The notes beneath the pieces were generated by a model. It made no database searches. It worked only from the letters and a program-made list of their open reading frames with translations, and was not told the DNA's origin. A program made the position numbers and the translations under genes. A DNA stretch of 57,924 nucleotides from an uncultured Bacteroidales bacterium (GTDB lineage: Bacteria; Bacteroidota; Bacteroidia; Bacteroidales; WCHB1-69). Shown piece by piece: positions 2,997-16,011 of this stretch. How positions within the stretch are numbered: position 1 is the stretch's first letter; every line of letters starts with the position of its first letter. The DNA lies in NCBI GenBank assembly GCA_900319925.1, contig ONQE01000026.1:1-57924 (forward strand). The letters run 5' to 3'.

Positions 2997-3132
2997 CAAA
3001 TTTTTCGTTTACGGCTTCGCGTGGCGAAAATGTCGGGCGGTATCAACCTCCCACATTGCAAGTCTTTCGCAAGCCCTTCGCAAGTAGTAGCATCGCTCTT
3101 GCGCCCTGTCAGCGTCGTACCAGGCACGTCAG

Positions 3133-3250
3133 TTCTTCGATAGTTGTTCGATACTTCTTCGATACTTCTTCGATAGTTGTTCGATAGTTCTTCGTAATTT
3201 TACGGAGAACTATCGAACAACTCACGGAGAACTCACGGAGAACTCGCGAG
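3133..3250. repeat. 11-bp phased tandem repeat with a large central palindrome
   Basis: The stretch can be written as consecutive 11-mers: five units of the form TTsTTCGATAs, then TTCTTCGTAAT, then units complementary to the first set (TTTACGGAGAA, CTATCGAACAA) and two CTCACGGAGAA units. Positions 3176-3221 form a 22-bp-arm palindrome around a TT centre with a single T-G mismatch. It lies between the AAA-ATPase gene start and the YqiA-like gene. The 11-bp step is close to one helical turn. Confidence 0.8.
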
Positions 3251-3279
3251 CCTGCGTGCTCTCTGATACGGCTCATATA

Positions 3280-3522
3280 CGGTGCAAGGGCTTGGGAACG
3301 CCTGTATTGCCATCCACAAGAGCCATGTTGAGAATCAGTTTGGCCTTTGCGATTTCGATCTGTTCCTGTTTCTCGAAGTCGATGATCTCGTTCAGGAAAA
3401 GGGCTTTTGCCGCTTTGTTGAATGTTGATGTGTTTTTGATCAAAACAGTTCGACAACAGCCGTCACTGCGGCGGGAATGCAGAAGAACTGGTATGCCTTT
3501 TTTCTTATCAACAGCGTAACGG
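3280..3522 (-). pseudogene. Possible remnant of a small coding region
   Basis: One minus-strand frame overlapping the 3' end of the YqiA-like gene reads about 80 codons without a stop and has the composition of a real protein, including FNKAAKALFLNEIIDFEKQ and EIAKAKLILNMALVDGNTG, ending at a TGA near 3280. No ATG or other plausible start is in frame before the preceding stop, and the open stretch overlaps the upstream gene's last codons. It may be a decayed gene, or a product reached by frameshifting from the gene upstream. No family is recognised. Confidence 0.3.
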
Positions 3523-4053
3523 ATGGTTCACACTGTGCACAATATGCGGCAACATCTCGGTCAATGCCCGCTTGTCAGGATGATGGCCACATTTGAACGT
3601 GTAGGTCGGGAACAACATCGAAAGTTCGTCCTTGTATGAGAACAATTCATCGTTGGTGCCAAACAGGCATGTCACATCTTCAAACAGGTAGGAGGGCATT
3701 TGATCGTGGTATTCTCTTTGGAGATAATCCTCAAGGGGTTTGTATTTTGAACCGTCATAGCCGAGTTTGGGAAGTTCTACAGATGGCCTAAAACACACGT
3801 TTATCAGAATTCTCGGAACTGGGGGGTATAGGACAAGTGCGAAAAATGCGCCCAACGAGGAGGCGACGATTCCGTCAGGTGTTTCATCATTAATGAATTT
3901 CTCCAATTGTGCTAACCCGACTTTCGGTTCCTCCTGGCTATATTCAGTGGTGACAATCTCCATATCCGAAGAGCGCAACAGCTCGCCGAGTGTTCTGGCG
4001 GTGGTGGATTTTGGACTTGACCCGAAACCGTAAATGTAAAGAATCTTATTCAT
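3508..4053 (-). CDS. YqiA/UPF0227-like alpha/beta-hydrolase
   Basis: The 181-aa protein starts MNKILYIYGFGSSPKSTTAR, the N-terminal strand and oxyanion-type loop of small YqiA/YcfP-like esterases. ASSLGAF (64-70) provides a nucleophile elbow with Ser66, and GHHPDK (His157) near the C-terminus is the likely catalytic histidine; an aspartate in the GTNDELF stretch could complete the triad. The length fits the family. It is cytoplasmic (no signal peptide) and acts on an unknown ester substrate. It follows the 218-aa gene by 39 bp on the same strand and is probably the last gene of that unit. Confidence 0.7.
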   Translation of the reverse strand: MNKILYIYGFGSSPKSTTARTLGELLRSSDMEIVTTEYSQEEPKVGLAQLEKFINDETPDGIVASSLGAFFALVLYPPVPRILINVCFRPSVELPKLGYDGSKYKPLEDYLQREYHDQMPSYLFEDVTCLFGTNDELFSYKDELSMLFPTYTFKCGHHPDKRALTEMLPHIVHSVNHPLRC

Positions 4054-4092
4054 TTTCTTGTGTGAATAAAAATATAGAATTTGGTTCCTGTC

Positions 4093-4749
4093 TTAGTCGT
4101 TGAGATACTTTTTGAAATAGGAATAGTCGAAATTGTCATCCTCCCTTAACATAGAGGGGAAGAAAATGTTCATATAGTGGGCATACATTCTGTCATACCG
4201 TTCTTGATCTGCGTAGTTGCCGTCATCGTCTATTTCTCCCCACGGAGACCCATCCATATTGTCATTAATTTCATCAAACAAATATTCTTCGATGAAAAAC
4301 AGGTCAACCTCATCATGATGAAGAATGTCATTGTAGTACACTCCATCATCCTCATACGCTTTCGCCTTGCTTAGCGTTGGCATCCCGTCAATGCATGTGG
4401 CTTGATACCAGATGCTGACATTGCTACCAGACTCGGTGGCGGTTAGTAGCAATTGCATTAGGACATTCACGTTTTTGTCTTTCGCGAGTTTGATGCAGGT
4501 GCGCCGCACATCATCGATGGATCTCCGTGTGGGTATACCGGCAGGAAGTTTTTCAGAAATCTCAAAACTGACATCATTTTTGAGTTCTAATGTGAAATTT
4601 TCCGAATAGCGGATATCGTTGTATTGTAACTTCTTAATCCGATTTTCCAGTTCTGTTTTTATCAGAATCAATTCCTTCTGAGGAAGGGTTTTCATTCTGT
4701 CATCCAGAAAAATGATCTTCCAAAAGTCAACTATGTCATGTAAAACCAT
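4093..4749 (-). CDS. Unrecognised protein, stand-alone paralogue of the glycosylase-fusion N-terminal domain
   Basis: This 218-aa acidic cytoplasmic protein is not one I recognise. It is clearly related to residues 1-225 of the protein encoded at 5349-6536: both share LHDI..WKI.FLDD.M at the start, IKTELE.RIKKLQY.D.RY about 30 residues in, a TATE.G....IW.QA segment near the middle and a D.SPW motif followed by acidic residues. It lacks the C-terminal DNA-glycosylase domain. The two genes also share a 22-bp leader just upstream of their starts. It precedes the YqiA-like gene by 39 bp and follows a 122-aa gene by 48 bp. Confidence 0.7.
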   Translation of the reverse strand: MVLHDIVDFWKIIFLDDRMKTLPQKELILIKTELENRIKKLQYNDIRYSENFTLELKNDVSFEISEKLPAGIPTRRSIDDVRRTCIKLAKDKNVNVLMQLLLTATESGSNVSIWYQATCIDGMPTLSKAKAYEDDGVYYNDILHHDEVDLFFIEEYLFDEINDNMDGSPWGEIDDDGNYADQERYDRMYAHYMNIFFPSMLREDDNFDYSYFKKYLND

Positions 4750-4761
4750 AATTGTTAGTGA

Positions 4762-4783
4762 GATTACCTGTACCTCTCAAGGT
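4762..4783 (-). promoter_or_regulatory. Conserved 22-bp leader, copy 1
   Basis: This 22-bp element lies 12 bp upstream of the ATG at 4749 and matches, with four differences, the element at 6546-6567 upstream of the glycosylase-fusion gene. On the minus strand both read ACCTTG...GTA.AGGTAATC. The position suggests a 5' UTR or promoter-proximal element. Confidence 0.45.
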
Positions 4784-4797
4784 GTTGATGCGACCAA

Positions 4798-5166
4798 CTA
4801 TGAAATGACAATATCAGTGAAATACTCATAATGTAAATCCATACAATCGTTGTAGTAAACGAGTTGTCGGGGAACATGTGTCTTGAACGGACCATGTTTC
4901 ATACAATACGCTGCTCTTGTGATACGCTCTCGCAAAGCGATGCCATTTGGATCCTTTTCCAAATAATCAACAAAAGAGTCTGCGTCAGTATAATTGAGAG
5001 ACCTTAAGATTTTGATCTCTTCTTTCTTCATCTGCTTCTCAATATTGCTGATAAAAGTGTTTTTTGTACCGTTGTCGCTAATATCCGCATCGTAGAAAAC
5101 CTCGTCTTCGGTTTCCACGATGAATGCATCTTTAAGTTTATCTATCAATTTATACTTTCCAACCAT
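4798..5166 (-). CDS. Small unrecognised protein
   Basis: The protein has 122 aa from the ATG at 5166 (MVGKYKLIDKLKDAF); a TTG three codons upstream would be the only alternative. It has no signal peptide or membrane segment. The N-terminus reads as a small beta-rich start (KLIDKLKDAFIVETEDEVF) followed by a lysine/glutamate-rich helix (EKQMKKEEIKILRSLNY). No family is recognised. It sits 48 bp upstream of the 218-aa gene on the same strand and is separated from the fusion gene by a strong hairpin at 5287-5329. Confidence 0.6.
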   Translation of the reverse strand: MVGKYKLIDKLKDAFIVETEDEVFYDADISDNGTKNTFISNIEKQMKKEEIKILRSLNYTDADSFVDYLEKDPNGIALRERITRAAYCMKHGPFKTHVPRQLVYYNDCMDLHYEYFTDIVIS

Positions 5167-5286
5167 AATATTCAAAGGACTTCTATGTTAAACAATTCAA
5201 TCGTTTCATTATGCCTTTGCGAAGTCCGTTAGACAAAAACACGATGATGACGATACACTGACAGTACTTTTTTTCTATGTCGGCTG

Positions 5287-5329
5287 ATTTTGAAAAAGTG
5301 GGGCTTTCGAGACCCCACTTTTTCAAAAT
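5287..5329. terminator. Perfect 17-bp hairpin terminator
   Basis: ATTTTGAAAAAGTGGGG and its exact complement enclose a 9-base loop; A- and T-rich arms make it work in either direction. It lies 20 bp past the stop of the glycosylase-fusion gene. Confidence 0.85.
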
Positions 5330-5348
5330 GACAAACGGTTTAGTTGTC

Positions 5349-6536
5349 CTATTTTTTGAAGCCAAGCGCTTCCTTCCATCCTTCCAATTTTTTCTCGAAG
5401 GACATCGGATAGGCGTTGCTTGTGGAGGGAGCGGTCGCACACTTCTTTTCAATCTTGAAATGCTCTTCAAAATCCTTGAATGTTTTCTTGCCGTTGAACA
5501 CGAGAAGATCAATGGTTTGATGCTCATTCAGGAACCCTTCGAGGTTATTGTAAACCACATTCTTCATATTCTTGTCCGCAGATCCCTCGCGCTCGCACTG
5601 ATGCGCAAGATCCCACACGGCCACCTTGTTGGCTTTCAGGCATTCCTCCTTCTCATTGTAGTTTTGGAACTTTTTGCCCTTATTGTAGATTTGTTCCATG
5701 AATTTCCAGAAGCTGTTGGTGTGGGAAGCATAATATTCGCCGGTTTCGAGGGATTTGTTTCCGGGCATAGTGCCGAGAATGAGAATCTTAGGCTCATCGC
5801 CAACCAATGGATTCAGGCCTGTTATTTCATTACCGATGATTATTTCCGTCTTTTCCTCCGTCACTTCTTCCGTATATTTCTTGGGAATATATTGCTGGAA
5901 AGAAGCAGACAGTTCGTCTAACCACAAATCATAGAAGAATGCCTTTGCTGTGTAAGCAAAACACTTGTTATACAGCTTCTCTGCATCTTCGGTCAACTCA
6001 TTGTCTTCATCCTTCTCCCATGGGGATTCGTCAAAATTGTCCATTAACGTGTCCCACAAGTATTCTTGGATTTCCTCCTCATTAGTCTCATTTTCAAAAT
6101 CTATATCTGTAAAGAATTCACCGTCAATATTTTCGTACACTTTGGCATCCGCTTCTGATGTTTGTCCGAAAAGGACGGCTGCTTGCATCCAAATAATCAA
6201 TTCTTTACCATACTCGGTAGCCGTATTGAAGATTTGCACCATAACATTCAAATGATTTTCGAGTGCATAATTTTGGCACAACTCCAAAATATCCTTTTGC
6301 GCTTTTGGGAAAGGAGAACCTTCGGGGATGGAATATTGCTCACCCCAAAGGTGCTCATCTGTGTCATAATAACTTAATTTAAAATCATCCGCATAACGAA
6401 GATCACCATATTGGAGCTTTTTGATTCGCTCTTCCAATTCTGTTTTTATCCTGAAACGCCTCTCTTTGGGGATTATATTCATTTTGTCGTCCAAAAAAAG
6501 GATTTTCCATTCATCACAAATATCATGTAAAGCCAT
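5349..6536 (-). CDS. Unknown domain fused to a UDG-superfamily (hypoxanthine/uracil) DNA glycosylase
   Basis: The 395-aa protein has two parts. Residues about 1-225 are an unrecognised acidic domain, shared with the stand-alone protein at 4093-4749. Residues about 232-395 fit the family-6 DNA-deoxyinosine/hypoxanthine glycosylases: LILGTMPGNKS (about 252-262), ASHTNSFWKFM (about 268-278) with an Asn in the usual catalytic place, and APSTSNAYPMSFEKKLEGW (about 373-391) matching the C-terminal substrate-loop motif. Such enzymes excise deaminated purines or uracil to start base-excision repair. The single-domain enzyme is usually about 160-170 aa, so the N-terminal extension is unusual. The start is the ATG that keeps the MALHDI motif aligned with its paralogue. 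Confidence 0.75.
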   Translation of the reverse strand: MALHDICDEWKILFLDDKMNIIPKERRFRIKTELEERIKKLQYGDLRYADDFKLSYYDTDEHLWGEQYSIPEGSPFPKAQKDILELCQNYALENHLNVMVQIFNTATEYGKELIIWMQAAVLFGQTSEADAKVYENIDGEFFTDIDFENETNEEEIQEYLWDTLMDNFDESPWEKDEDNELTEDAEKLYNKCFAYTAKAFFYDLWLDELSASFQQYIPKKYTEEVTEEKTEIIIGNEITGLNPLVGDEPKILILGTMPGNKSLETGEYYASHTNSFWKFMEQIYNKGKKFQNYNEKEECLKANKVAVWDLAHQCEREGSADKNMKNVVYNNLEGFLNEHQTIDLLVFNGKKTFKDFEEHFKIEKKCATAPSTSNAYPMSFEKKLEGWKEALGFKK

Positions 6537-6545
6537 ATCTTACGC

Positions 6546-6567
6546 GATTACCTATACATCGCAAGGT
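6546..6567 (-). promoter_or_regulatory. Conserved 22-bp leader, copy 2
   Basis: This copy lies 9 bp upstream of the ATG at 6536 and matches the element at 4762-4783 except at four positions. Co-duplication with the coding domain or a shared regulatory role are both possible. Confidence 0.45.
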
Positions 6568-6643
6568 TCTAAATAATAGGATCCATATATGAACTATAGT
6601 GATCACCAGCAGGAACCCTTTAACCGGTGCCACAGTTTTTGCT

Positions 6644-6871
6644 CTATTCTTCTGTCAATTCAATGTTTGTTGAAGAGCGGATGAGGATAGACTGCTCTGC
6701 AGGAATGATGCAGACAGGAAGCAGGTGTCCGTTTGTGCGCTCACAGATTCGATATAGGTTATGCTTCAGCACCACAACCATCTCTGTTTTTGAATCCGTT
6801 GTTCCGAAGAAGCGTGTGTATTGCCTGTCCGTCACCTTCACTCCGTCTGCAAATGTTTCTATGATGACCAT
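6644..6871 (-). CDS. Small unrecognised protein
   Basis: A 75-aa frame from an ATG reads like a compact beta-rich protein (MVIIETFADGVKVTDRQYTR, then TEMVVVLKHNLYRICERTNG), with no signal peptide or membrane segment. It sits between two other small genes on the minus strand, 107 bp ahead of the fusion gene. I recognise no family; the opposite-strand frame over the same bases looks less protein-like. Confidence 0.45.
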   Translation of the reverse strand: MVIIETFADGVKVTDRQYTRFFGTTDSKTEMVVVLKHNLYRICERTNGHLLPVCIIPAEQSILIRSSTNIELTEE

Positions 6872-6971
6872 CCGAATAAATACTGTTTATTGGTATTAGA
6901 CTGTTATTACATATTATGGCATAAATATACGCCACAACAGAGTGTTTTTAACAAACCCAAAAAACAGGAGA

Positions 6972-7172
6972 CTATTTGTCTTTGTTGATAAAATCGATGA
7001 GCTTGTTTCCGAACTGACGGACAGTCCACTCCTTGTCGTATTCGAAGCCGACCTTTGCCGCTATTTCACGAAGAGCCGCCGTAGAGTTGTCATAAATGCG
7101 ATAGACCACGATGCTTCCGCTTTCTTCCTTTTGGATGATGTATTCACCCGAAATTGCTGATTTTGCTGCCAT
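6972..7172 (-). CDS. Small conserved-looking cytoplasmic protein (66 aa)
   Basis: I chose the ATG at 7172 (MAAKSAISGEYIIQKEE) because the open frame upstream of it runs through a promoter-containing repeat. The protein has a short beta-hairpin start (EYIIQKEESGSIVVYRIYD) followed by helices (STAALREIAAKVGF, RQFGNKLIDFINKDK). It resembles a class of short Bacteroidota proteins of unknown function, but I cannot name the family. Its promoter region (7194-7283) is a near-identical copy of the one upstream of the FISUMP gene at 7523-11602. Confidence 0.65.
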   Translation of the reverse strand: MAAKSAISGEYIIQKEESGSIVVYRIYDNSTAALREIAAKVGFEYDKEWTVRQFGNKLIDFINKDK

Positions 7173-7232
7173 AACTGTATGTTTTAAATTATTAAGAACG
7201 CCGTGAAATCCCTCTTCGGTGATTTCACAGCG

Positions 7233-7240
7233 CAAAAATA
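7233..7240 (-). promoter_or_regulatory. -7 promoter element TATTTTTG (cassette copy 1)
   Basis: Exact TAnnTTTG match on the minus strand, 60 bp upstream of the 66-aa gene; 23 bp separate it from the direct repeat at 7264-7281. Confidence 0.6.
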
Positions 7241-7263
7241 ATATGTTAACCGATTGGCGGCTT

Positions 7264-7281
7264 GGTCCGAATTGGTCCGAA
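7264..7281 (-). promoter_or_regulatory. Direct-repeat operator TTCGGACC-AA-TTCGGACC, copy 1
   Basis: Two TTCGGACC octamers are separated by AA (plus strand GGTCCGAATTGGTCCGAA). The same element lies at 11821-11838 and 14044-14061, each 22-23 bp upstream of a -7 box, which fits an activator or alternative-sigma site. Confidence 0.6.
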
Positions 7282-7286
7282 TTTAC

Positions 7287-7379
7287 TCACTCCCGCTCCT
7301 GCCGCACCTCTGTCAACCCGCCTTTGTTGCCGACCACGAAGAGCGTCGGGACGTTGTTGCCGTGCACGAAGTTGTCGAG
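7287..7379 (-). pseudogene. C-terminal fragment of an HTH-like gene (relative of 13422-13994)
   Basis: These 93 bases, including the TGA stop, match the 3' end of the intact gene at 13422-13994 with only scattered differences and would encode the same C-terminus (VHGNN.PTLFVVGNKGG). Upstream of the fragment (above 7380) the similarity stops and no open frame continues, so this is a remnant of a second gene copy. It abuts the direct-repeat operator copy 1. Confidence 0.75.
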
Positions 7380-7522
7380 ATTATCCCTTAGTAACCTGAA
7401 CTTTTGTAGAGAATACATAAAACTGTCCTATAACACGTTCCTCATGTTTTATATATTTTTCTTCATCATCTATAGGGAAAAGCGTAAATGCCACCACACC
7501 ATTCTTTTTGTGTAAGGTAGGT

Positions 7523-10500
7523 TTAATCCTTGAGGCAGCGAACGGAATAGCCCTGGTTCTTGCTGTTGGTAATGCTGGTTACGTAGGCGCTATTGTAGAA
7601 GAGGTGGCGGCGGTACGCGTCAAAGCCACTGGACTCGGTAGAACTCCAAAAGACGGCGGTGTAGCCGAAATTGCAAGAACCATTACCATTGATGTAGAAG
7701 CCCGCAGGCAACGCCCCGAAACATGTGGCGTTGTTGCTGGACGGCATGTTGCCCACATCACATTGGTTTTCACTGTAAGTCCATCCTGTGGTTGAGGCTA
7801 ACGCCTTGGCGACAAAGTTGTTGTTGTTGCCGCACAGATAGTTGCTCTGGCTACTGACATGGTTTTCCAGTTCACTCCACTCCGCGTCGCTTGGAACGTG
7901 CCACCCGTTGGGACATATACCCAGCACGCCGGAGGGAGAGGCATTGCTGGAAGAAGCCCCATGCATTACCGCAGCCCAGTTGTAAAGATAACCGTGTGTG
8001 GAAATAGTGCTGCTGCTGTTTGCTGGATAATAATAGAAATAATAGGGGTAGGCTGTTGAGGAGGAACTACCTGAAGATAGGGAAGTGCCATCCGCGTAAT
8101 GCGTAGTGCGGAGATTCTCCTGCATCCAGCACTGGTTTCCGATTTGCACCGTATTATAAACGTTTCCGTCATAGTCAGTGACAGTAGGTGTGTTAGGGCA
8201 AGAAACTTGTTGATTTGTCATGAAACTCACCTGGTTGCCATACGCCGTGCCCGCGTTGTTTGTGGCGTAGGCCCGCACATAGTAGGTGGTGTTTTGAGAC
8301 AAATCGGTAACACTGCTGGTAAAGGTGCCGGTACCGTTGCCGTCGGTGGTATGGTTGTTGCTTACCGTAGGGTTGGGCGAAGTACTCCAACACACCCCGC
8401 GGGCGGTCACAGATACACCGCCGTCAGCGGTCACGTTGCCGCCACAAGTGGCGGAGTTGGTTGTGATGTTGCTGGGCGCAGCGGTGAATACGGTGGGAAA
8501 GGAGACAAAAGTGGTGTCTCCACCACCTCCCGTCTCGTCTTTTATGCAACGGACGGAATAGCATTGTCGTATGCTGCCGAAACTCAATTGCCAGTAGATA
8601 TTGTTGGAGTAAAGGCTGAAGTCATAGAGGTATACTCCATACGAATCATCAGAATGTACGGTAGCACTCCAAAAGTGGGTGTCGCCACCGACAGCGTTGT
8701 AGCCGTTGTAGCTATAGTAGCCAGCGGGAAGGGCTGAAAAGCCCGTGCCGTTGTTGGCAGAAAGATCGTTGCCTATCACGCAGTAGCCATTCTCGGTGAT
8801 CCATCCCACCGTGTCCGCCAATGCCTTGACGATACTGTTTTCGTAACCGCATAAATGAATGCTTTGGCTACTCACAGAATCGGCCATTTGCTCCCACTCC
8901 ATTTTACTAGGCAAATGCCACCCAACGGGGCAGATGCCCCTGCGGTGGCCAGTGAACGTCACCGACATCTGGTTAGCGGGATCTGTATTCACACTTGTCT
9001 CCCCAAACATTGTATTGAACGTGTCCACCGCCGCATACCAGTTGTAGAGCAATCCGTATTTCATCGGGGCATACGTGGCGGATTCGTTGTTGTACCAGCG
9101 TGCCTGCTTACCCGTGTACGTACATACCGAATTGACATCCGGAATAAGGTAAGTTCCAGTACTCGGCGAAGTTGTGGTACGCAAATTTTCCCTCATCCAG
9201 CACTGGTTTCCGATCAGCACGGTGTTATAGACGTTGCCCTCATGGTCAGTCACGGTTGGAACACCAGGACAAGGAAGACCACCCTGTCCAGTGGTGCCAG
9301 AAGTGGTGGTAAAAGGCCATTGTTCCCCGTATGACGTACCCAGACTGTTGGTGGCATACGCCCGCACGTAATAGGTTGTGTTAGCGGCAAGCCCCGTGAT
9401 ATTGCTTGTAAAACCGCCCGTGCCACTGCCATCCGTGGTATGACTATCATTAAGGGTAGGATTATGCGATGTACTCCAGCACACTCCACGGGAAAAGACG
9501 GTATCGTTACCATCAGCTGTTACAGTTCCGCCGCAGATGGCAGAAACAGAAGAAATGCCAGTAGCAGGATTAGTGATGACTTGTGGCAAAGTCTGGTTGC
9601 TGCCAACACCGAGAACACAACGGACTGAAAGCCCTGAATTCTTATAACTCGAGTTACCACTTATGTATGTGTTGTCGGCAGACAAGTACTGGGAGGATGC
9701 ATAATCAACAGAAGTACCATTGGAAGTCCAAAAATAAGCGTATTGGCCTGCCCCATAGAGGCCTGCCCCTTGGAATCCCAAACTGTACCACTCACCTGCC
9801 GGAACGGCCGAAAAACCGGTAGCATTGTTTGTGGACGGGCTGTTGCCTATAGCGCAACTGGTGGAACTATTTTGCCATCCCGTTGTAGAAGCCAAAGCCT
9901 TAGCGATAGAATTATCACATTGGTACTGGCTTTGACTGCCCACATAAGAACTCAATTGCCACCATTCATCAAGGCTGGGAACATGCCACCCAGTAGGGCA
10001 GATACCTTGAATACCACTTGGATTTGCATTAGAGGAACAAGCATTATGCATCACAGCAGGCCAATTGTACAGATAACCATAACCTAGCTGTGCCTGATAC
10101 GAAAGGATGTAATAGTACGGCAGAATATAGCTGCCTTCACCACTCATGTTGCCTACTGGTATGGACACACCATCGGCATAATGCGTGGTTCGCAGGTTCT
10201 CTTTCATCCAACATTGGTCACCAATCTGCACGGTATTGTAAGTGTTTCCGTCAATGTCGGTGAGGGTTGCGGCATTTGGGCAAGGCTGCCCATCCATAGA
10301 CAAGGTCGTAAAACTCACCACATTTCCATACGCTGTCCCTACACTATTGGTGGCATACGCCCGCACATAATAGACTGTGTTTGCAGCCAACCCTGAGATG
10401 CTGCTGCCAAAACTGCCGGTACCGCTGCCGTTTGAAGTGTGGCTGTCATTGAGAGTTGGGTTCTGTGAAGTACTCCAACATACACCTCGTGCCGTGACAG

Positions 10501-11602
10501 GAGCAGCCACAACACTGTTCACATAGTTGTTCCCGCAATAGGCTGAGTTTCCTGTAACGTTGCTCACCGTACCCGTTGTTACCTCTGGTAAAGTGGCTGA
10601 TGTTGTGAAACTCACCTCGTTGCCATACGATGTGCCCACACTGTTTCGGGCGTATGCCCGCACATAATAGGTTCTGCCGGCATAAAGTCCAGTCAAACTG
10701 CTGGTGAAAGCACCCGTTCCGCTGCCATTCGTAGTATGGTCACCGCTAATAGTTGGGTTATGCGACAAACTCCAGCAAACACCCCTTTCCGTAACGGCCG
10801 CACCGCCGTCACTGGTTACGTTGCCGCCGCAAGTGGCTGCGTTAGACGTGATGCCACTTACTGTATTGGTGGAGACTGTTGGCATGTAGTATATTTGCGT
10901 TTCCGCAAACTGCAATGTGAATAATTGCGACGATCCCTGCGCTTGTGTGATGCGCTGGCTCTCCGCTTCCGTGTTGTTAATGAAGGCATAACCCACATAT
11001 TCCATTTGGTCGCCGAAATTGAAAGGATTGTTAGTGCTGGATTTCAACACGACGGTAATGGTCTGTACCATGCCAAGATAGTCTAATGTGTTGCTACCAC
11101 CTCCGCCGTTGCAAATCATCTTGATGGAGGATGTCTTCCCATTCTGGCGGGCGGTCATCACGTAAGTACCCGCGGTGGACAAGGAAATGCGGAATTGATG
11201 ATTTCCCGGTTGTAGAGATACAAGATTTTGTGTCTCTATGATGCGTCCATTCATATCCTTGATGTCCAAATCAACCTTGCCTTCATCCACTGTTGTCAGG
11301 CTCACCTCAGTAGTGCCACTGAAGGGGTTTGGATTGTTCTGCGACAGAACGAATCCGCCGTCCAAAGTGTGGTCGTCAATGTCCGTGCCGTTCTGCATAG
11401 TCAGCACCGTGTCGGGCCAGTAAATGGTCTCCTGCCAGCTCTTGGTCAGATTGGTTATGATAACCCTGTTAAGCTGCACATAATGGTTTGCAGCGTCCTT
11501 TGCGGTGAAAGTGAGGGTGACGGTCTGGGCGGCCAATCCGAAGGATGCAGCCGCTAAAATAAGAAATAAAAGCCCTTTTGGGCAGATATTCTTTTCTGTC
11601 AT
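7523..11602 (-). CDS. Large secreted FISUMP / fibronectin-like repeat protein
   Basis: The 1359-aa protein has a signal peptide (cleavage after SFGLAAQ, about residue 26). Residues about 85-165 resemble a T9SS type-A sorting domain (LSQNNPNPFSGTTEVSL, KDMNGRIIE, STAGTYVMTARQNGK) although they lie near the N-terminus. Four related repeats of about 90 aa follow (ATCGGNVT, RGVCWS, GSGTG, YYVRAYATNS, VSFTT). They alternate with three FISUMP domains at about 437-665, 774-1020 and 1132-1359, each with a DGN.YNTV.IG.QCWM.ENLRTT opening and an SVRC ending. FISUMP domains occur in large secreted surface proteins of Fibrobacter and Bacteroidota; a binding or structural role on the cell surface is inferred. 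Transcription probably starts in the cassette at 11751-11840. Confidence 0.85.
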   Translation of the reverse strand: MTEKNICPKGLLFLILAAASFGLAAQTVTLTFTAKDAANHYVQLNRVIITNLTKSWQETIYWPDTVLTMQNGTDIDDHTLDGGFVLSQNNPNPFSGTTEVSLTTVDEGKVDLDIKDMNGRIIETQNLVSLQPGNHQFRISLSTAGTYVMTARQNGKTSSIKMICNGGGGSNTLDYLGMVQTITVVLKSSTNNPFNFGDQMEYVGYAFINNTEAESQRITQAQGSSQLFTLQFAETQIYYMPTVSTNTVSGITSNAATCGGNVTSDGGAAVTERGVCWSLSHNPTISGDHTTNGSGTGAFTSSLTGLYAGRTYYVRAYARNSVGTSYGNEVSFTTSATLPEVTTGTVSNVTGNSAYCGNNYVNSVVAAPVTARGVCWSTSQNPTLNDSHTSNGSGTGSFGSSISGLAANTVYYVRAYATNSVGTAYGNVVSFTTLSMDGQPCPNAATLTDIDGNTYNTVQIGDQCWMKENLRTTHYADGVSIPVGNMSGEGSYILPYYYILSYQAQLGYGYLYNWPAVMHNACSSNANPSGIQGICPTGWHVPSLDEWWQLSSYVGSQSQYQCDNSIAKALASTTGWQNSSTSCAIGNSPSTNNATGFSAVPAGEWYSLGFQGAGLYGAGQYAYFWTSNGTSVDYASSQYLSADNTYISGNSSYKNSGLSVRCVLGVGSNQTLPQVITNPATGISSVSAICGGTVTADGNDTVFSRGVCWSTSHNPTLNDSHTTDGSGTGGFTSNITGLAANTTYYVRAYATNSLGTSYGEQWPFTTTSGTTGQGGLPCPGVPTVTDHEGNVYNTVLIGNQCWMRENLRTTTSPSTGTYLIPDVNSVCTYTGKQARWYNNESATYAPMKYGLLYNWYAAVDTFNTMFGETSVNTDPANQMSVTFTGHRRGICPVGWHLPSKMEWEQMADSVSSQSIHLCGYENSIVKALADTVGWITENGYCVIGNDLSANNGTGFSALPAGYYSYNGYNAVGGDTHFWSATVHSDDSYGVYLYDFSLYSNNIYWQLSFGSIRQCYSVRCIKDETGGGGDTTFVSFPTVFTAAPSNITTNSATCGGNVTADGGVSVTARGVCWSTSPNPTVSNNHTTDGNGTGTFTSSVTDLSQNTTYYVRAYATNNAGTAYGNQVSFMTNQQVSCPNTPTVTDYDGNVYNTVQIGNQCWMQENLRTTHYADGTSLSSGSSSSTAYPYYFYYYPANSSSTISTHGYLYNWAAVMHGASSSNASPSGVLGICPNGWHVPSDAEWSELENHVSSQSNYLCGNNNNFVAKALASTTGWTYSENQCDVGNMPSSNNATCFGALPAGFYINGNGSCNFGYTAVFWSSTESSGFDAYRRHLFYNSAYVTSITNSKNQGYSVRCLKD

Positions 11603-11789
11603 ATTGGTTTATTTTGTTGATGAATTATTCTTTTGTTATTAATTGAAATTGTTGTTTTCAGCTGCTTAGGTGTGCAACCGCTTTCCTCAAAGAAGGCGCG
11701 GCCTGTCTTTGTCGTCAAAGAGGTTCTAGCAAAACCCAAGCAGAAAAAAAAAGAACGCCGTGAAATCCCTCTTCGGTGATTTCACAGCG

Positions 11790-11797
11790 CAAAAATA
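11790..11797 (-). promoter_or_regulatory. -7 promoter element TATTTTTG (cassette copy 2)
   Basis: Exact TAnnTTTG match on the minus strand, 23 bp downstream of the direct repeat; likely promoter of the FISUMP gene with a leader of roughly 180 bases. Confidence 0.6.
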
Positions 11798-11820
11798 ATA
11801 TCTAAACCGATTGGTGGTTT

Positions 11821-11838
11821 GGTCCGAATTGGTCCGAA
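11821..11838 (-). promoter_or_regulatory. Direct-repeat operator TTCGGACC-AA-TTCGGACC, copy 2
   Basis: Same 18-bp element as at 7264 and 14044, at the same distance from its -7 box; it begins 12 bp past the ATPase stop codon. Confidence 0.6.
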
Positions 11839-11850
11839 TTAAGGGTGCTA

Positions 11851-13293
11851 TCAGTCGAAAAGGTCGTCTAAGGTGACGCTGCATTGGATGACGGAGCTGT
11901 TCTTGCCCGGGACAATTCCGAACGTGGAGATCAGGGTGGTGAGGATGGTGGCGCGCGTTTTCACAGATTCCCTGAAGACGGCCACCTTTTGGCGCAACTT
12001 GTCCGCGTAGTCCTTGGTGATAAGAAACGGCTCGTTGGCGCAGAATTTGATCTCGCACAGGTTGATGGCCCTGTCGCCGCGTTCCAACACCAGGTCTATT
12101 TGAGCCCCGGCGTCTTGTGCATCCCGGTCCCACCAGGAGAACGCATTGCAAAGGACTCCGGAAATTCCCAAGCCGCGCTTGATTTGCTCCACATGGGTCA
12201 AACATATCAGCTCAAAAGTGAGACCGTTCCAGACCTGTGTCGCAGGGGTGTTGATGGTGTGAGACCAAAACCTCGGGTCCAGTCCTTCCTTCCCTTTGAT
12301 GAACTTCAAGTAAAACAAGGTGTAAAAATCGCACAGCCTGTATTTTATGTCTCTTTTCTTGTCCATGGAATAGTATGAGGAGATGAAGAAGCAGTTCTTC
12401 AGATCCCTGAGATAACGGCTGATGTCACCGCCGCATTTCTTGCCTAACAATGCGCATATTTCGGTCCGCGAATACCCTGCCTTTTTGCCGGCAAGAATTT
12501 CGATGATGTGCCTGTAGGTTTCCGGCTTTTTGAATAAGGAACTAAACAGCCGGTCGTATTCACCGGACAAGGGGGCACCCTGGCTGAAGAACAGCTCGTC
12601 AATGTTTTGCGCGAGACTTTTCCCTCGTTTCAGTTGTCGCAGATAGTAAGGGATGCCCCCCATCACCATATAGCAACGCAATATCTCGATTCTGTCGTAA
12701 GCGAAGCCCCGGCTGCTGAGATACGACTCCGTTTCAGACAGGGTGAAAGGGGATATCAACATCGGATGAGTGATGCGGTTGTACAAGCCCCCCGTGTTGT
12801 TGATGACGTTGTCGATGATGTATGAGGTGGCGGAACCGCAAACGATGAACATCAGATTGGATCTGTGAGCTGCCCAGTCGTTCCAGAAATGCTCCAATGC
12901 GGTGATGAATCCGGAAGAGGGAGTGTCCATCCATGGCAGCTCGTCAATGAAAACCACCTGCCGCTCTTGGTTGTCCGCATTGGTCAACAGGTCTTGGAGG
13001 TTGTTGAAGGCCTCAAACCAATCCGAAGGTTTCTCGTATTCCCGAATCCCATATTGATTCAGAGCCGTTTGGAAGTTTTCCAACTGCCGTTCCTTCAGGT
13101 TGATGTTGTCGGATTCGATTGGGGAGAGTCCTGTCACGCAAAAATCGAACCGATTTTGGAAAAAATGGTGGACCAAAAAGGTTTTCCCCACGCGTCGCCT
13201 GCCGTAAATTACGATGAATTCTGCCTCGCGAGAATCGTAATATTCTTGTAAATCAGTAAGTTCCTTCTTTCTTCCGATGATTTCTGCTGTCAT
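11851..13293 (-). CDS. Archaeal-type ATPase with C-terminal PD-(D/E)XK (DUF234-like) domain
   Basis: The 480-aa protein has Walker A GRRRVGKT (31-38), Walker B VVFIDELPW (about 113-121) and a sensor-like FIVCGSATSYI, as in the ATPase_2 family. A winged-helix-like middle (YSRTEICALLGKKCGGDISR) precedes a C-terminal nuclease-like core: GAQIDLVLERG followed by NLCEIKF, matching the D...E-x-K pattern of DUF234. Such proteins are common, often multicopy and of unresolved function in Bacteroidota. All key residues appear intact. The gene has an operator-like array of CTCCGCGAA sites over its promoter (13312-13375). Confidence 0.85.
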   Translation of the reverse strand: MTAEIIGRKKELTDLQEYYDSREAEFIVIYGRRRVGKTFLVHHFFQNRFDFCVTGLSPIESDNINLKERQLENFQTALNQYGIREYEKPSDWFEAFNNLQDLLTNADNQERQVVFIDELPWMDTPSSGFITALEHFWNDWAAHRSNLMFIVCGSATSYIIDNVINNTGGLYNRITHPMLISPFTLSETESYLSSRGFAYDRIEILRCYMVMGGIPYYLRQLKRGKSLAQNIDELFFSQGAPLSGEYDRLFSSLFKKPETYRHIIEILAGKKAGYSRTEICALLGKKCGGDISRYLRDLKNCFFISSYYSMDKKRDIKYRLCDFYTLFYLKFIKGKEGLDPRFWSHTINTPATQVWNGLTFELICLTHVEQIKRGLGISGVLCNAFSWWDRDAQDAGAQIDLVLERGDRAINLCEIKFCANEPFLITKDYADKLRQKVAVFRESVKTRATILTTLISTFGIVPGKNSSVIQCSVTLDDLFD

Positions 13294-13311
13294 AATGCCC
13301 CTGTTTTATTT

Positions 13312-13375
13312 CTCCGCGAAGATACAAAATTTTTGTTCGCGGAGGAGTTTTAGGGGGTCGTTTTCCTCCGCGAAC
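13312..13375. promoter_or_regulatory. CTCCGCGAA inverted-repeat array around the ATPase promoter
   Basis: CTCCGCGAA at 13312-13320 faces TTCGCGGAGGA at 13336-13346, which in turn forms a perfect 12-bp inverted repeat with TCCTCCGCGAAC ending at 13375. A near -7 box (TATCTTCG on minus) overlaps the first site. The downstream pair could also act as terminator for the HTH-like gene, whose stop is at 13422. Confidence 0.5.
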
Positions 13376-13421
13376 TGATTTTTTTTCGGTTCGTGGAGAT
13401 TTTGGCGGGGAGTGCTCGCCG

Positions 13422-13994
13422 TCACTCCCGCTCCCGCCGCACCTCCGTCAGCCCGCCTTTGTTGCCGACCACGAAGAGGGTGGGGGCGTTGTTGCCGTGC
13501 ACGAAGTTGTCGAGGTAGAGCGGCTCCCCGAGGATGAAGCAGGAACACGAAAAGGAATCGCCGGGCTTGAGCTTGGAGTTCTCGCTCTCCACCACCATGA
13601 AGCTCCCTTCGCCGAGATGGCGCAGCAGCACACGGCGGTCGGGCGACCAGGCGATGCGCACAAAACCCTCCTGCGGGATCTCGTCGGGATGCAGGACGCG
13701 GCCCAACACCGGGTTCGAGGATTCGCCCGCGCGGTCGTGGTTGGCCAGGAAATCGTCCCAGTCGTGAAAACCCACGCAACGGGCGAGGACCGAGAGGGTG
13801 GAGTAGCGGGTGGTGTCGTAACCCTCCACATAGCCCCAGATGCGCTTGAGGGTGGTCACCCCCAAGGTCTCCTTGCAGCGCTCCTGGATCACGCCGGTGA
13901 GGAACTGGAAGTCGGCGGGAGTCTTCATCTTGCGCGACACGGACTCCTCCACCATTTCGCGGAGTTGCAGGATTTCGGTTTCGTTGGGCTTCAT
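13422..13994 (-). CDS. HTH-like protein of a multicopy Bacteroidota family
   Basis: The 190-aa cytoplasmic protein has an N-terminal helical part with TPADFQFLTGVIQERC and LGVTTLKRIWGYVEGY, which reads like a degenerate helix-turn-helix, followed by LSVLARCVGFHDWDDFL. The C-terminal half (about 95-190) is beta-rich (GFVRIAWSPDRRVLLRHLG, FMVVESENSKLKPGDSF, NNAPTLFVVGNKGG). I have a general recollection of such proteins recurring in many copies in this phylum, without assigned function; a fragment of a second copy lies at 7287-7379. A regulatory role is inferred only. Its promoter carries the third TTCGGACC direct repeat. Confidence 0.7.
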   Translation of the reverse strand: MKPNETEILQLREMVEESVSRKMKTPADFQFLTGVIQERCKETLGVTTLKRIWGYVEGYDTTRYSTLSVLARCVGFHDWDDFLANHDRAGESSNPVLGRVLHPDEIPQEGFVRIAWSPDRRVLLRHLGEGSFMVVESENSKLKPGDSFSCSCFILGEPLYLDNFVHGNNAPTLFVVGNKGGLTEVRRERE

Positions 13995-14013
13995 ACAGGA
14001 TTTTTTAGACGCG

Positions 14014-14021
14014 CAAAATTA
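14014..14021 (-). promoter_or_regulatory. -7 promoter element TAATTTTG of the HTH-like gene
   Basis: TAnnTTTG match on the minus strand, 19 bp upstream of the ATG at 13994 and 22 bp downstream of the direct repeat at 14044-14061. Confidence 0.6.
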
Positions 14022-14043
14022 TAAAATTCAAACAACGGGAGAC

Positions 14044-14061
14044 GGTCCGAATTGGTCCGAA
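14044..14061 (-). promoter_or_regulatory. Direct-repeat operator TTCGGACC-AA-TTCGGACC, copy 3
   Basis: Identical 18-bp core to copies at 7264 and 11821, at matching distance from its -7 box, but without the rest of the 90-bp cassette. Shared core with different flanks points to selection on the site rather than simple duplication. Confidence 0.6.
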
Positions 14062-14180
14062 CAATGACGCCGCTTCCCTTCACCTTCCTTGGAACCGTTC
14101 CGCGCGGCAAAAATACTATTTTTAAAGGTGAGATTTTTTTTTTCGAAAAAAATGTAACCTTTTTGATTTTTTGCATCTGT

Positions 14181-14339
14181 ATAGTGAATGGTGAATTGTG
14201 ATTAGTGTGATTAGTGAATTGTGATTGGTGAATTGTGATTGGTGAATAGTGATTGGTGAATTGTGATTGGTGAATTGTGATTGGTGAATTGTGATTGGTG
14301 AATTGTGATTGGTGAATTGTGAGTGAATTGTGATTAGTG
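14181..14339. repeat. Heptamer/14-bp tandem repeat array (TTGGTGA-ATTGTGA)
   Basis: About 22 units of 7 bp, mostly alternating TTGGTGA and ATTGTGA, occupy most of the 406-bp gap between the HTH-like gene start and the barrel gene. No open frame or stem-loop is evident in the array. The rest of the gap holds promoters at both ends. Confidence 0.85.
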
Positions 14340-14342
14340 CAA

Positions 14343-14350
14343 TATTTTTG
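14343..14350 (+). promoter_or_regulatory. -7 promoter element TATTTTTG for the barrel/lipoprotein pair
   Basis: Exact TAnnTTTG match directly after the heptamer array and 50 bp before the chosen ATG at 14401, so the array occupies the region upstream of the -7 box. Confidence 0.55.
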
Positions 14351-14400
14351 ATGTGTTTTCGTTTAGTAGAATAGATATGAAGCGTTTTATAATTCGTAAG

Positions 14401-15030
14401 ATGATGAAAAAGAGTTTATTCCTGTTATTGTTGTGTGTGCCGTTCGGGATGGGGCTGTTTGCGCAAGGGGACGGCTCCGACTGGCGCCAGACGTTCAACC
14501 GGCACGAGTTCTCGCTCGCGGTCGGCGACCCGACGATGGCGAACAGAACCCGTATGGAGAAATTTTCCGGCAACACCATGACCTCCTGGTTGGACATTCC
14601 TACCTACACCGATGTCTATACTTCGGCGCCCATCACGTTGGGTTACCGTTTCCGGCTTCTGAAGTGGCTGTGGCTCGGCGGCGACATCACCTATTGCGGC
14701 TTCTTCGGCACCTCCCGCAACATCTATACGGAGGAACCGGTCTATAAGTATCGCGAAAATTCGGTGAGCATCATGCCCTCCATCCGCTTTTCCTACCTCA
14801 ACCGCGAGCACGTCACCCTCTACAGCGGTTTCACGTCGGGCTTGCGGATCGGTGTGGCGGAAGCCTACAACGAGAAGGACGTTTTTGTCCGGCTACCCTT
14901 CCAGGTGACCCTCTTCGGCGTTTCCGCCGGCAGTCAGAGCTGGTTCGGCTTTGCGGAACTCGGGGTCGGCTTCCAAGGATTCGCCAAGGCCGGCTTCGGT
15001 TACCGTTTTAACGGAAAGAAAAGACAATAA
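14401..15030 (+). CDS. Small outer-membrane beta-barrel protein
   Basis: I placed the start at MMKKSLFLLLLCVPFGMGLF, giving a clean signal peptide ending at FAQ and 209 aa; in-frame ATGs at 14353 and 14377 would add a charged leader. The mature part alternates aromatic and polar residues (ITLGYRFRLLKWLWLGGDI, VSIMPSIRFSYLNREHV, FAELGVGFQGFAKAGFGYRF) and ends near a terminal strand, as expected of an 8-10-stranded barrel. The ligand is unknown. The lipoprotein gene follows 18 bp later and is probably co-transcribed. Confidence 0.7.
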   Translation: MMKKSLFLLLLCVPFGMGLFAQGDGSDWRQTFNRHEFSLAVGDPTMANRTRMEKFSGNTMTSWLDIPTYTDVYTSAPITLGYRFRLLKWLWLGGDITYCGFFGTSRNIYTEEPVYKYRENSVSIMPSIRFSYLNREHVTLYSGFTSGLRIGVAEAYNEKDVFVRLPFQVTLFGVSAGSQSWFGFAELGVGFQGFAKAGFGYRFNGKKRQ

Positions 15031-15048
15031 CCTTAAAATCATGACAGT

Positions 15049-15993
15049 ATGAAAAAGATATCTTTGATATTAAGCATAGCTATCTTGTTGACGGCCCTCC
15101 TGAACAGCTGCAAGGTGGAGGATAATTCCGTCAAGCAGTTGAACGAGAACGGTATGGTACTCACGAGCTACTGGCAGGCGGCCACCTATCAGGCGCTGAT
15201 GTCCACTCCGAATACAGCGCTCCATCTCAACGCCTGGCTTTCGGCACCGGAGGAGGAACGTCCTGCAATCGAAGACAAATACTTTACCTACAGTAAACTG
15301 CGCCCCATTTCCGACCAAGAATGGGAGATTGTCTTCAATGGACGCACCCTTTGTCGCATCCAGACGGGCGGAACGTTGCTCTCGGCCCCTAACGCCGAAT
15401 GGACGGTGGTGGATTATGACCAATCCGGACTGGTTCGGGATATGCTTCCGTTCGGAAAGGACTCCGTGAGGATAACGTTACGACACATCGGGAACAAGTG
15501 GAGCGTGGAGACCGGTGTTCAGGAGGGGATGGCTTCCAGTGCCGACTATATCCCCTACTATCATCTCACCATCGAGCCCGAGTCTGGGGTGATTCCCGCC
15601 GATTTGAACGATTGCCGCTGTCTTGTCGAGGGATCCGGACGTTATGCTTTCCGCACGTACCGGTATGTGGACAATGCCCAAAATCCCGCGGAGATTCACA
15701 ATTACATCAACTTTGACTTGAGCGGGGCTGCCACGGACAATCTGTACCATTGGGCGGACGGTCTTCTGGTTATGCGGGTTTATGCGGACGTGAATGCATA
15801 CGAAGCAGGTGCTACCAACCGAGAGCAGTACGATGATTTGATCATTCGTGACCGGCTTTCCCTTCGTAGCGGTAGCCAGTACGCCGAGATTACCATGCAC
15901 GACGTGACGGAGACCTGGCCGGTGGGGCGCTTGGAAGAATTTGACCATTGGCAGTGCGGGAATTTCTTTGCTGCCTTGTTTGAACTGTTCTAA
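15049..15993 (+). CDS. Putative lipoprotein of unknown function
   Basis: The 314-aa protein opens MKKISLILSIAILLTALLNSC, a lipoprotein signal with Cys21 as the modified residue. The mature part is rich in beta-strand segments with no motif I recognise (for example EWEIVFNGRTLCRIQTGGT and VRITLRHIGNKWSVETGV). It ends shortly before two tandem 19-bp repeats and a terminator at 16051. The pairing with the barrel gene suggests a cell-envelope role. Confidence 0.65.
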   Translation: MKKISLILSIAILLTALLNSCKVEDNSVKQLNENGMVLTSYWQAATYQALMSTPNTALHLNAWLSAPEEERPAIEDKYFTYSKLRPISDQEWEIVFNGRTLCRIQTGGTLLSAPNAEWTVVDYDQSGLVRDMLPFGKDSVRITLRHIGNKWSVETGVQEGMASSADYIPYYHLTIEPESGVIPADLNDCRCLVEGSGRYAFRTYRYVDNAQNPAEIHNYINFDLSGAATDNLYHWADGLLVMRVYADVNAYEAGATNREQYDDLIIRDRLSLRSGSQYAEITMHDVTETWPVGRLEEFDHWQCGNFFAALFELF

Positions 15994-16011
15994 CCCGACT
16001 GCCGTTTTTTT

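Follow-up and report, generated by a model that had tools for sequence, protein, structure and literature searches.

The window analysed here is the whole 57,924-nt stretch of contig ONQE01000026.1 (assembly GCA_900319925.1), from an uncultured Bacteroidales bacterium. It carries an 18-bp element, TTCGGACCAATTCGGACC, that occurs exactly at 7264–7281, 11821–11838, and 14044–14061, on the minus strand in all cases. We consider it likely that this element belongs to a local, autoregulated, and probably activating tandem-operator circuit, run by a 190-aa regulator (13422–13994) and serving the genes around it. In sequence comparisons among relatives, operators and regulators pair with one another, the spacing to the promoter is kept, and the set of targets is mostly local. 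The features that carry this account are:

7264..7281, minus strand: operator copy 1 (TTCGGACCAATTCGGACC), ahead of the 66-aa gene
7233..7240, minus strand: −7 box TATTTTTG, 23 nt after operator copy 1
6972..7172, minus strand: 66-aa target gene behind copy 1
11821..11838, minus strand: operator copy 2, ahead of the Fib_succ_major (FISUMP) gene and 12 nt beyond the end of the ATPase reading frame
11790..11797, minus strand: −7 box TATTTTTG, 23 nt after operator copy 2
7523..11602, minus strand: 1359-aa Fib_succ_major (FISUMP) surface protein, the target of copy 2 (Pfam PF09603, E 7.1e-99, in 3 stretches)
14044..14061, minus strand: operator copy 3, ahead of the regulator's own gene
14014..14021, minus strand: −7 box TAATTTTG, 22 nt after operator copy 3
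13422..13994, minus strand: regulator, 190 aa, with a predicted five-helix N-terminal domain (1–88) and a predicted beta-rich C-terminal domain (about 99–190)

A sequence-only reading of the window had described three exact minus-strand copies, 22–23 nt before a TAnnTTTG box and ahead of three different genes, and this was borne out: the distances are 23, 23, and 22 nt, and the genes encode the 66-aa protein, the 1359-aa FISUMP protein (by its Fib_succ_major match), and the 190-aa protein. It had seen no further copy in the window, and we found none at up to 3 mismatches; at that tolerance, 3 of 100 shuffled windows gave at least 3 matches (mean 0.74), and the three real matches are exact. Nor did the window's genome (3.12 Mb scanned, 252 contigs, 86.8 per cent complete) contain another site at up to 2 mismatches, where the reversed control pattern matched once. 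The three sites together span at most 6.8 kb. Copies 1 and 2 lie in a common 90-nt block (7194–7283 and 11751–11840, 96 per cent identity), whereas copy 3, just as that reading had it, shares only the 18 nt with them. Because copies 1 and 2 belong to one duplicated block, they represent two independent contexts with copy 3, not three.

Upstream of many, not all, homologues of the regulator, direct repeats specific to the regulator's group stand ahead of the −7 box. These are GGACC units with a period of 10 in group A, GAACC units with a period of 11 in group C (about 42–47 per cent identical), and ATGGG units with a period of 10 in group D (about 36–38 per cent identical). All three groups are represented in the window's genome, by a single regulator each. 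A single matching site, ahead of its own gene, goes with the C regulator and two go with the D regulator, and these two further paralogues would each have operator words of their own. Scanning 36 genomes of the genus gave A sites in 11 genomes (19 in all), C sites in 11 (20), and D sites in 9 (15), with 2, 0, and 0 matches to the respective reversed controls. A genus genome that has a given type carries 1–3 sites of it. By our tally, 49 of the 54 sites have a matching regulator on the same contig, at most 13 kb away, and the usual layout is one site ahead of the regulator and one or two ahead of other genes a few kilobases off.

The type of site follows the paralogue present. A sites occur in 11 of 17 genomes with their own paralogue and 0 of 19 without it, C sites in 10 of 10 and 1 of 26, and D sites in 8 of 8 and 1 of 28; association with the other paralogues is weak or none (p 0.04–0.41). 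The lists were compiled by hand, with group A taken as proteins of at least 70 per cent identity plus fragments in G011, G025, and G031. A group at 52–57 per cent (G005, G006:C96, G009:C41, G034:C40), G023, G024, and small pieces in G013, G021, and G025:C42 were left out. If the 28-residue piece in G021 (68 per cent) is counted as group A, the comparison becomes 11 of 18 versus 0 of 18. An order-wide scan with a strict GGACC pattern matched 2 of 295 genomes (G000 and G235), both with a regulator and too few to test, and reversed controls matched in 5 genomes, once each.

Relatives of the regulator were found in 31 of 60 genomes (the window's genome counted), and by profile search in 52 of 295 genomes of the order, the latter count including proteins with the N-terminal domain only. 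A scan of species genomes yielded at least 514 stretches that encode relatives, from which 80 loci (1.28 Mb in total) were kept. Their labels are Bacteroidales, Bacteroidetes, Bacteroidia, or a family within, with many rumen or gut names and one Fibrobacter. These loci contain 115 regulator genes, of which the 108 with enough upstream sequence were used. Of the 108 regulators, 49 have the pattern GRACY-N5/6-GRACY no more than 150 nt upstream, compared with 39 of the 1011 other genes in these loci that encode 100 aa or more. Controls gave far fewer among regulators (reversed pattern, 0/108 regulators and 1/1011 other genes; scrambled, 0 and 1; opposite strand, 1 and 23). A sequence-blind test for 7-nt repeats (at least 6 of 7 positions matching) that end 27 nt before TTTG recovered a period of 10 in 33/108 and of 11 in 15/108, with 0–2/108 for periods of 8, 9, 12, and 13 at the same offset.

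The distance to the promoter is similarly constrained. Both strands of the 80 loci hold 135 distinct GRACY sites (duplicates removed only where 100 nt were identical), and 101 of them have TTTG 26–28 nt further on: 14 at 26 nt, 84 at 27 nt, and 3 at 28 nt. None of 55 reversed-pattern control sites does. The aligned consensus is AANAAGGACCAANAAGGACC, followed by a weakly conserved spacer and the −7 box. Of the 101 spaced sites, which are spread over 66 of the 80 loci, 35 stand ahead of a regulator gene and the other 66 do not.

No family in Pfam, NCBIfam, PADLOC, or PHROGs matched the window's regulator at the E-value cut-offs applied. Searched against Pfam at E 0.1, 58 aligned regulators gave a few scattered weak matches (best E 0.0015), none of them to a helix-turn-helix (HTH) or S24 family, and the 58-row profile matched no PDB sequence up to E 1. 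(The 36-row and 58-row alignments were thinned at 90 per cent identity by a crude ungapped measure, with 57 of 77 kept.) AlphaFold predicts helices at 5–18, 26–40, 46–52, 64–73, and 79–85, followed by a beta-rich domain (mean predicted local distance difference test, pLDDT, 85; predicted template modelling score, pTM, 0.51); the N-terminal domain modelled alone has five helices and no strand (pLDDT 86, pTM 0.76). Foldseek found no PDB match to either model at E 0.001 or better, and its best match of XRE kind was 3b7h, at E 1.2. A literature search of titles and abstract beginnings turned up no description that we recognised as this family. In viral contigs, 1 of 62 stretches encodes a relative, and on that count a phage origin of the regulator was rejected. 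Two loci (L032 and L033) encode proteins of about 830 aa that start with the N-terminal domain of the regulator and, by eye, resemble STAND or NACHT ATPases.

Residue 47 is the second residue of the predicted helix 46–52, and it tracks the second base of the operator unit across 56 self sites, those ahead of the regulator's own gene. (In lambda CI-type and XRE repressors, helix 3 holds the recognition-helix position.) Serine at 47 goes with GAACY in both units (17/17), threonine with at least one GGA unit (36/37), and asparagine with ATGGG (2/2). Ranked by mutual information over column entropy, with 54 of the 56 rows (the two asparagine rows dropped), residue 47 tops 162 variable columns, scoring 0.72 for the first unit against 0.43 for the next column. 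It changes 4 times on the tree. Among 4 independent pairs, the base shifts along with it in an average of 3.8 for the first unit and 2.8 for the last, never in the opposite way. Non-self sites in the same loci share ancestry, yet they are not the autoregulatory ones. Both of their units read GAAC in 21 of 23 cases with serine or alanine at 47, versus 5 of 42 with threonine, so that the rule is kept in 21/23 and 37/42; this count leaves out one site, at a locus with both serine and threonine.

The sequence-only reading had offered the element as an operator or an extracytoplasmic function (ECF) sigma site that defines a regulon, with autoregulation by the 190-aa protein as a guess. Its operator half is supported by the fixed spacing to the −7 box (101/135 sites at 26–28 nt in relatives' loci, 0/55 controls), and the window's genome has no stray copies at up to 2 mismatches. 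The guess at autoregulation has gained backing from paralogue-specific sites, co-occurrence, and the covariation of residue and base. The ECF half found no support. An ECF sigma promoter has −35 and −10 elements about 16–17 bp apart and a −10 that is not the housekeeping one; here the repeat lies 22–23 nt from a housekeeping TAnnTTTG box, and we rejected such a site for both its spacing and its box. The wide regulon likewise gave way to local targets, with 3 sites within 6.8 kb in the window's genome and 1–3 of each type per genus genome.

Mechanistically, two regulator protomers would probably sit head to tail on the two 8-bp words of the operator, which lie one helical turn from each other and face the same side of the DNA, immediately ahead of the −7 box. 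Sites at the regulator's own promoter and at those of its two neighbours, the genes for the 66-aa protein and the FISUMP surface protein, would make the circuit local and autoregulated. Published promoters have the −7 consensus TAnnTTTG and a TTTG near −33. If TAnnTTTG is taken as −11 to −4, the operator would cover about −34 to −51 and its centre would fall at about −42, a position counted from the predicted box. Class II activator sites are centred near −41.5 at fixed spacing, and the element agrees on both counts, 101 of 135 sites lying 26–28 nt from TTTG. Because the spacing is fixed to about 1 bp while the spacer drifts, the protein probably touches RNA polymerase, and activation from this class II-like position is favoured. 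We infer binding by the regulator, its head-to-tail arrangement, and activation.

Several results weigh against this account. No GRACY repeat lies upstream of 59 of the 108 regulators, some of which have near variants or another word and others nothing; 6 of 17 group A genomes have the regulator and no GGACC site of the scanned form; and 5 of the 54 genus sites (G006:C60, G032:C41, G010:C35, G028:C20, G025:C78) have no matching regulator on their contig. Common descent of many promoters and regulators weakens the counts and p-values. By raw mutual information, residue 47 is narrowly exceeded by V35 for the first unit and is exceeded by at least eight columns for the last, and with 4 independent pairs a sign test is unable to reach 0.05. 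The five threonine exceptions all lie in L172, where target sites read GAAC, and L141 and L197 break the rule in the opposite direction. We read an HTH fold from five predicted helices, for which Foldseek gave no PDB match at E 0.001 or better. Activation draws no direct support from loss of the −33 element: a −33 TTG at the free positions −27 and −26 is about equally common in operator promoters (9/55, the strict-box filter having kept 55 of 101) and in controls (45/216). A first count that seemed to prove activation by −33 loss (9/55 versus 88/216, p 0.0008) was rejected as mostly artefact, because the operator fills positions −32 to −28.

The −33 count at the free positions fits an alternative in which the same regulator and operator pair up, and the protein is a repressor that covers the −33 region and regulates itself negatively. 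The operator abuts that region, where polymerase could be blocked, the −33-like TTG is not depleted at the free positions, and negative autoregulation is common among small regulators. A repressor, however, needs no 26–28 nt spacing, and 101 of 135 sites keep it (84 at exactly 27 nt) despite weakly conserved spacers. We therefore regard repression as rather unlikely, while giving it more weight than any other competitor.

An operator ahead of a gene is no proof that the gene's product binds there, and the repeat might be read by some other factor, such as an ECF sigma or a global activator, with the 190-aa gene merely one of its targets. The five genus sites lacking a matching regulator agree with this. 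It is hard to reconcile with an operator word that varies with the paralogue and with residue 47 of the predicted recognition helix, or with the housekeeping TAnnTTTG box downstream, and we think it very improbable. Slighter still is the chance that the repeats amount to a promoter cassette, mobile or duplicated, or to an attachment site, with no dedicated protein to bind them. Copies 1 and 2 do share a 90-nt block, hairpin included, copy 1 has a duplicate of 93 nt from the regulator gene next to it, and cargo genes behind the block vary between strains; yet copy 3 shares 18 nt only, the spacers are weakly conserved in sequence and constant in length, and operator words differ by paralogue. 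A genome-wide regulon was discarded on the 3 sites of the window's genome. An invertible promoter was discarded too, as no close inverted repeats flank the three promoters. Of 14 inverted pairs listed for 3000–16000, none with arms under 1 kb apart spans any of them, and those that do span one are 16–26 nt long, 73–88 per cent complementary, and 1.9–11.4 kb apart, as by chance.

Under the activating circuit that we favour, the remaining features of the locus are:

7194..7283, minus strand: first copy of the operator-promoter-leader block, 96 per cent identical to 11751–11840
11751..11840, minus strand: second copy of the block, 96 per cent identical to 7194–7283
7200..7231, minus strand: leader hairpin of copy 1, with an 11-bp stem and a 10-nt loop, directly after the −7 box
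11757..11788, minus strand: leader hairpin of copy 2, the same as at 7200..7231
7287..7379, minus strand: relic of a duplicated regulator 3′ end beside copy 1, 93 nt, 94 per cent identical to 13422–13514
11851..13293, minus strand: 480-aa ATPase between the regulator and copy 2, PADLOC candidate PDC-S27

All 11 pairs of the hairpin are kept in 11 of 11 aligned group A target leaders, ahead of different genes, and one pair is changed on both sides among them. Rfam at gathering scores found two tRNAs in the window and nothing else.

The relic, which the sequence-only reading had not mentioned, bears on how the locus arose. In G009, L135, and L136 the regulator gene is followed closely by an operator. 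In G009 the regulator gene is intact, the next gene's operator begins a few bases past its end, and the sequence is nearly that beside copy 1 of the window; in L136 the gene next to the downstream operator is, by eye, a homologue of the 66-aa protein. Given these three cases, copy 1 may be the operator that ancestrally followed the regulator gene. The two would later have become separated by a segment that carries the ATPase gene, copy 2, and the FISUMP gene, with the 93-nt relic left beside copy 1. G025 has a similar arrangement, with a 2837-aa protein whose start resembles that of the FISUMP protein. The ATPase matches the candidate defence family PDC-S27 in PADLOC at E 3.6e-191 and is not counted among the targets of the circuit. 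The stretch 5349–6536 encodes a protein with a C-terminal uracil-DNA glycosylase superfamily domain that the operon behind copy 1 possibly includes. Two further repeats are seen in the window: a 14-nt unit (TGTGATTGGTGAAT-like) in tandem at 14178–14345, between the region upstream of the regulator and a plus-strand gene at 14353, and 11-nt tandem repeats (TTCTTCGATAG-like) at 3133–3205, which adjoin their own imperfect inverted copy.

The genes behind the operator-promoter-leader block differ from strain to strain. We clustered 64 proteins behind presumed target sites (one of them behind a self site). The largest clusters are lipoprotein-like (13) and a family starting MGLINN or MGILNN (11). 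A group of 7 has, by eye, secreted or surface-like proteins (two were scanned in Pfam, one without a match and one with a weak Lcl_C match below cut-off), 3 are GIY-YIG-like (the one member scanned matches PF20815), and the rest are pairs and singletons, among them a homologue of the 66-aa protein. At group C loci, a protein kinase gene adjoins the regulator in L108–L111 and L118, and C sites in L108–L111 are followed by an operon that includes a PqqD-radical SAM-SPASM protein, as scanned in L111. Varied genes follow the group D sites of L113, L114, L117, and L119; in the last three they include a run of genes with TerB-like starts, judged by eye, together with an SPFH (Band_7_1) protein that also has a GYF domain, as scanned in L117.

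A broader picture, on which we are evenly divided, is of a Bacteroidales family of small activators that runs several insulated local circuits per genome. Specificity would follow a residue-47 code (threonine for GG, serine or alanine for GA, asparagine with ATGGG), conserved operator-promoter-leader blocks would carry exchangeable cargo (surface proteins, lipoproteins, and TerB-like, radical SAM, and GIY-YIG genes), and the N-terminal domain would also head the 830-aa (approximate length) STAND-like ATPases. For a regulator family of rumen and gut Bacteroidales that has had no annotation, the results suggest which DNA it probably targets, how its promoters are laid out, and which residue could be tested for specificity. 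FISUMP surface proteins, for which our literature search found no paper, would share one local control with a number of small proteins that are still uncharacterised. Orthogonal regulator–operator pairs might become useful tools in Bacteroidales, provided that the one-residue code holds.

Operators made of tandem repeats are of a known kind, as is local autoregulation; the regulator family was not found in the family libraries searched. In the Pho box and other OmpR/PhoB sites, two short direct repeats about one helical turn (11 bp) apart lie just upstream of the promoter and are bound head to tail for activation. The window's operator has the same direct-repeat layout, and we propose the same head-to-tail binding and activation, although, unlike OmpR/PhoB, the 58 regulators have no receiver or winged-helix match in Pfam and the N-terminal model has no strand. 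SARP regulators of Streptomyces use heptamer direct repeats at a fixed distance from the promoter and act locally. The present system is like them in its direct repeats, fixed promoter distance, and local control, and unlike them in belonging to another phylum and having no SARP domain among the Pfam matches of the 58 regulators.

In predicted architecture, a five-helix N-terminal and a beta-rich C-terminal domain, the regulator would resemble lambda CI-type and XRE repressors and the non-canonical LexA of Bacteroidetes (PMC8565304). It differs from XRE and LexA proteins in that the 58 regulators have no PF01381 or S24 (PF00717) match at E 0.1 and in that its operators are direct repeats. Short direct repeats ahead of genes also recall the TAACTGA repeats of Beggiatoaceae, Cyanobacteria, and a few Bacteroidetes, for which a translational role is suggested (PMC4679880). 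Those repeats are one fixed heptamer, found in a single genome as 169 sets, each of two to six copies; the regulator operators, in contrast, have a period of 10–11 bp, number 1–3 sites per genome, and keep a fixed distance to the −7 box.

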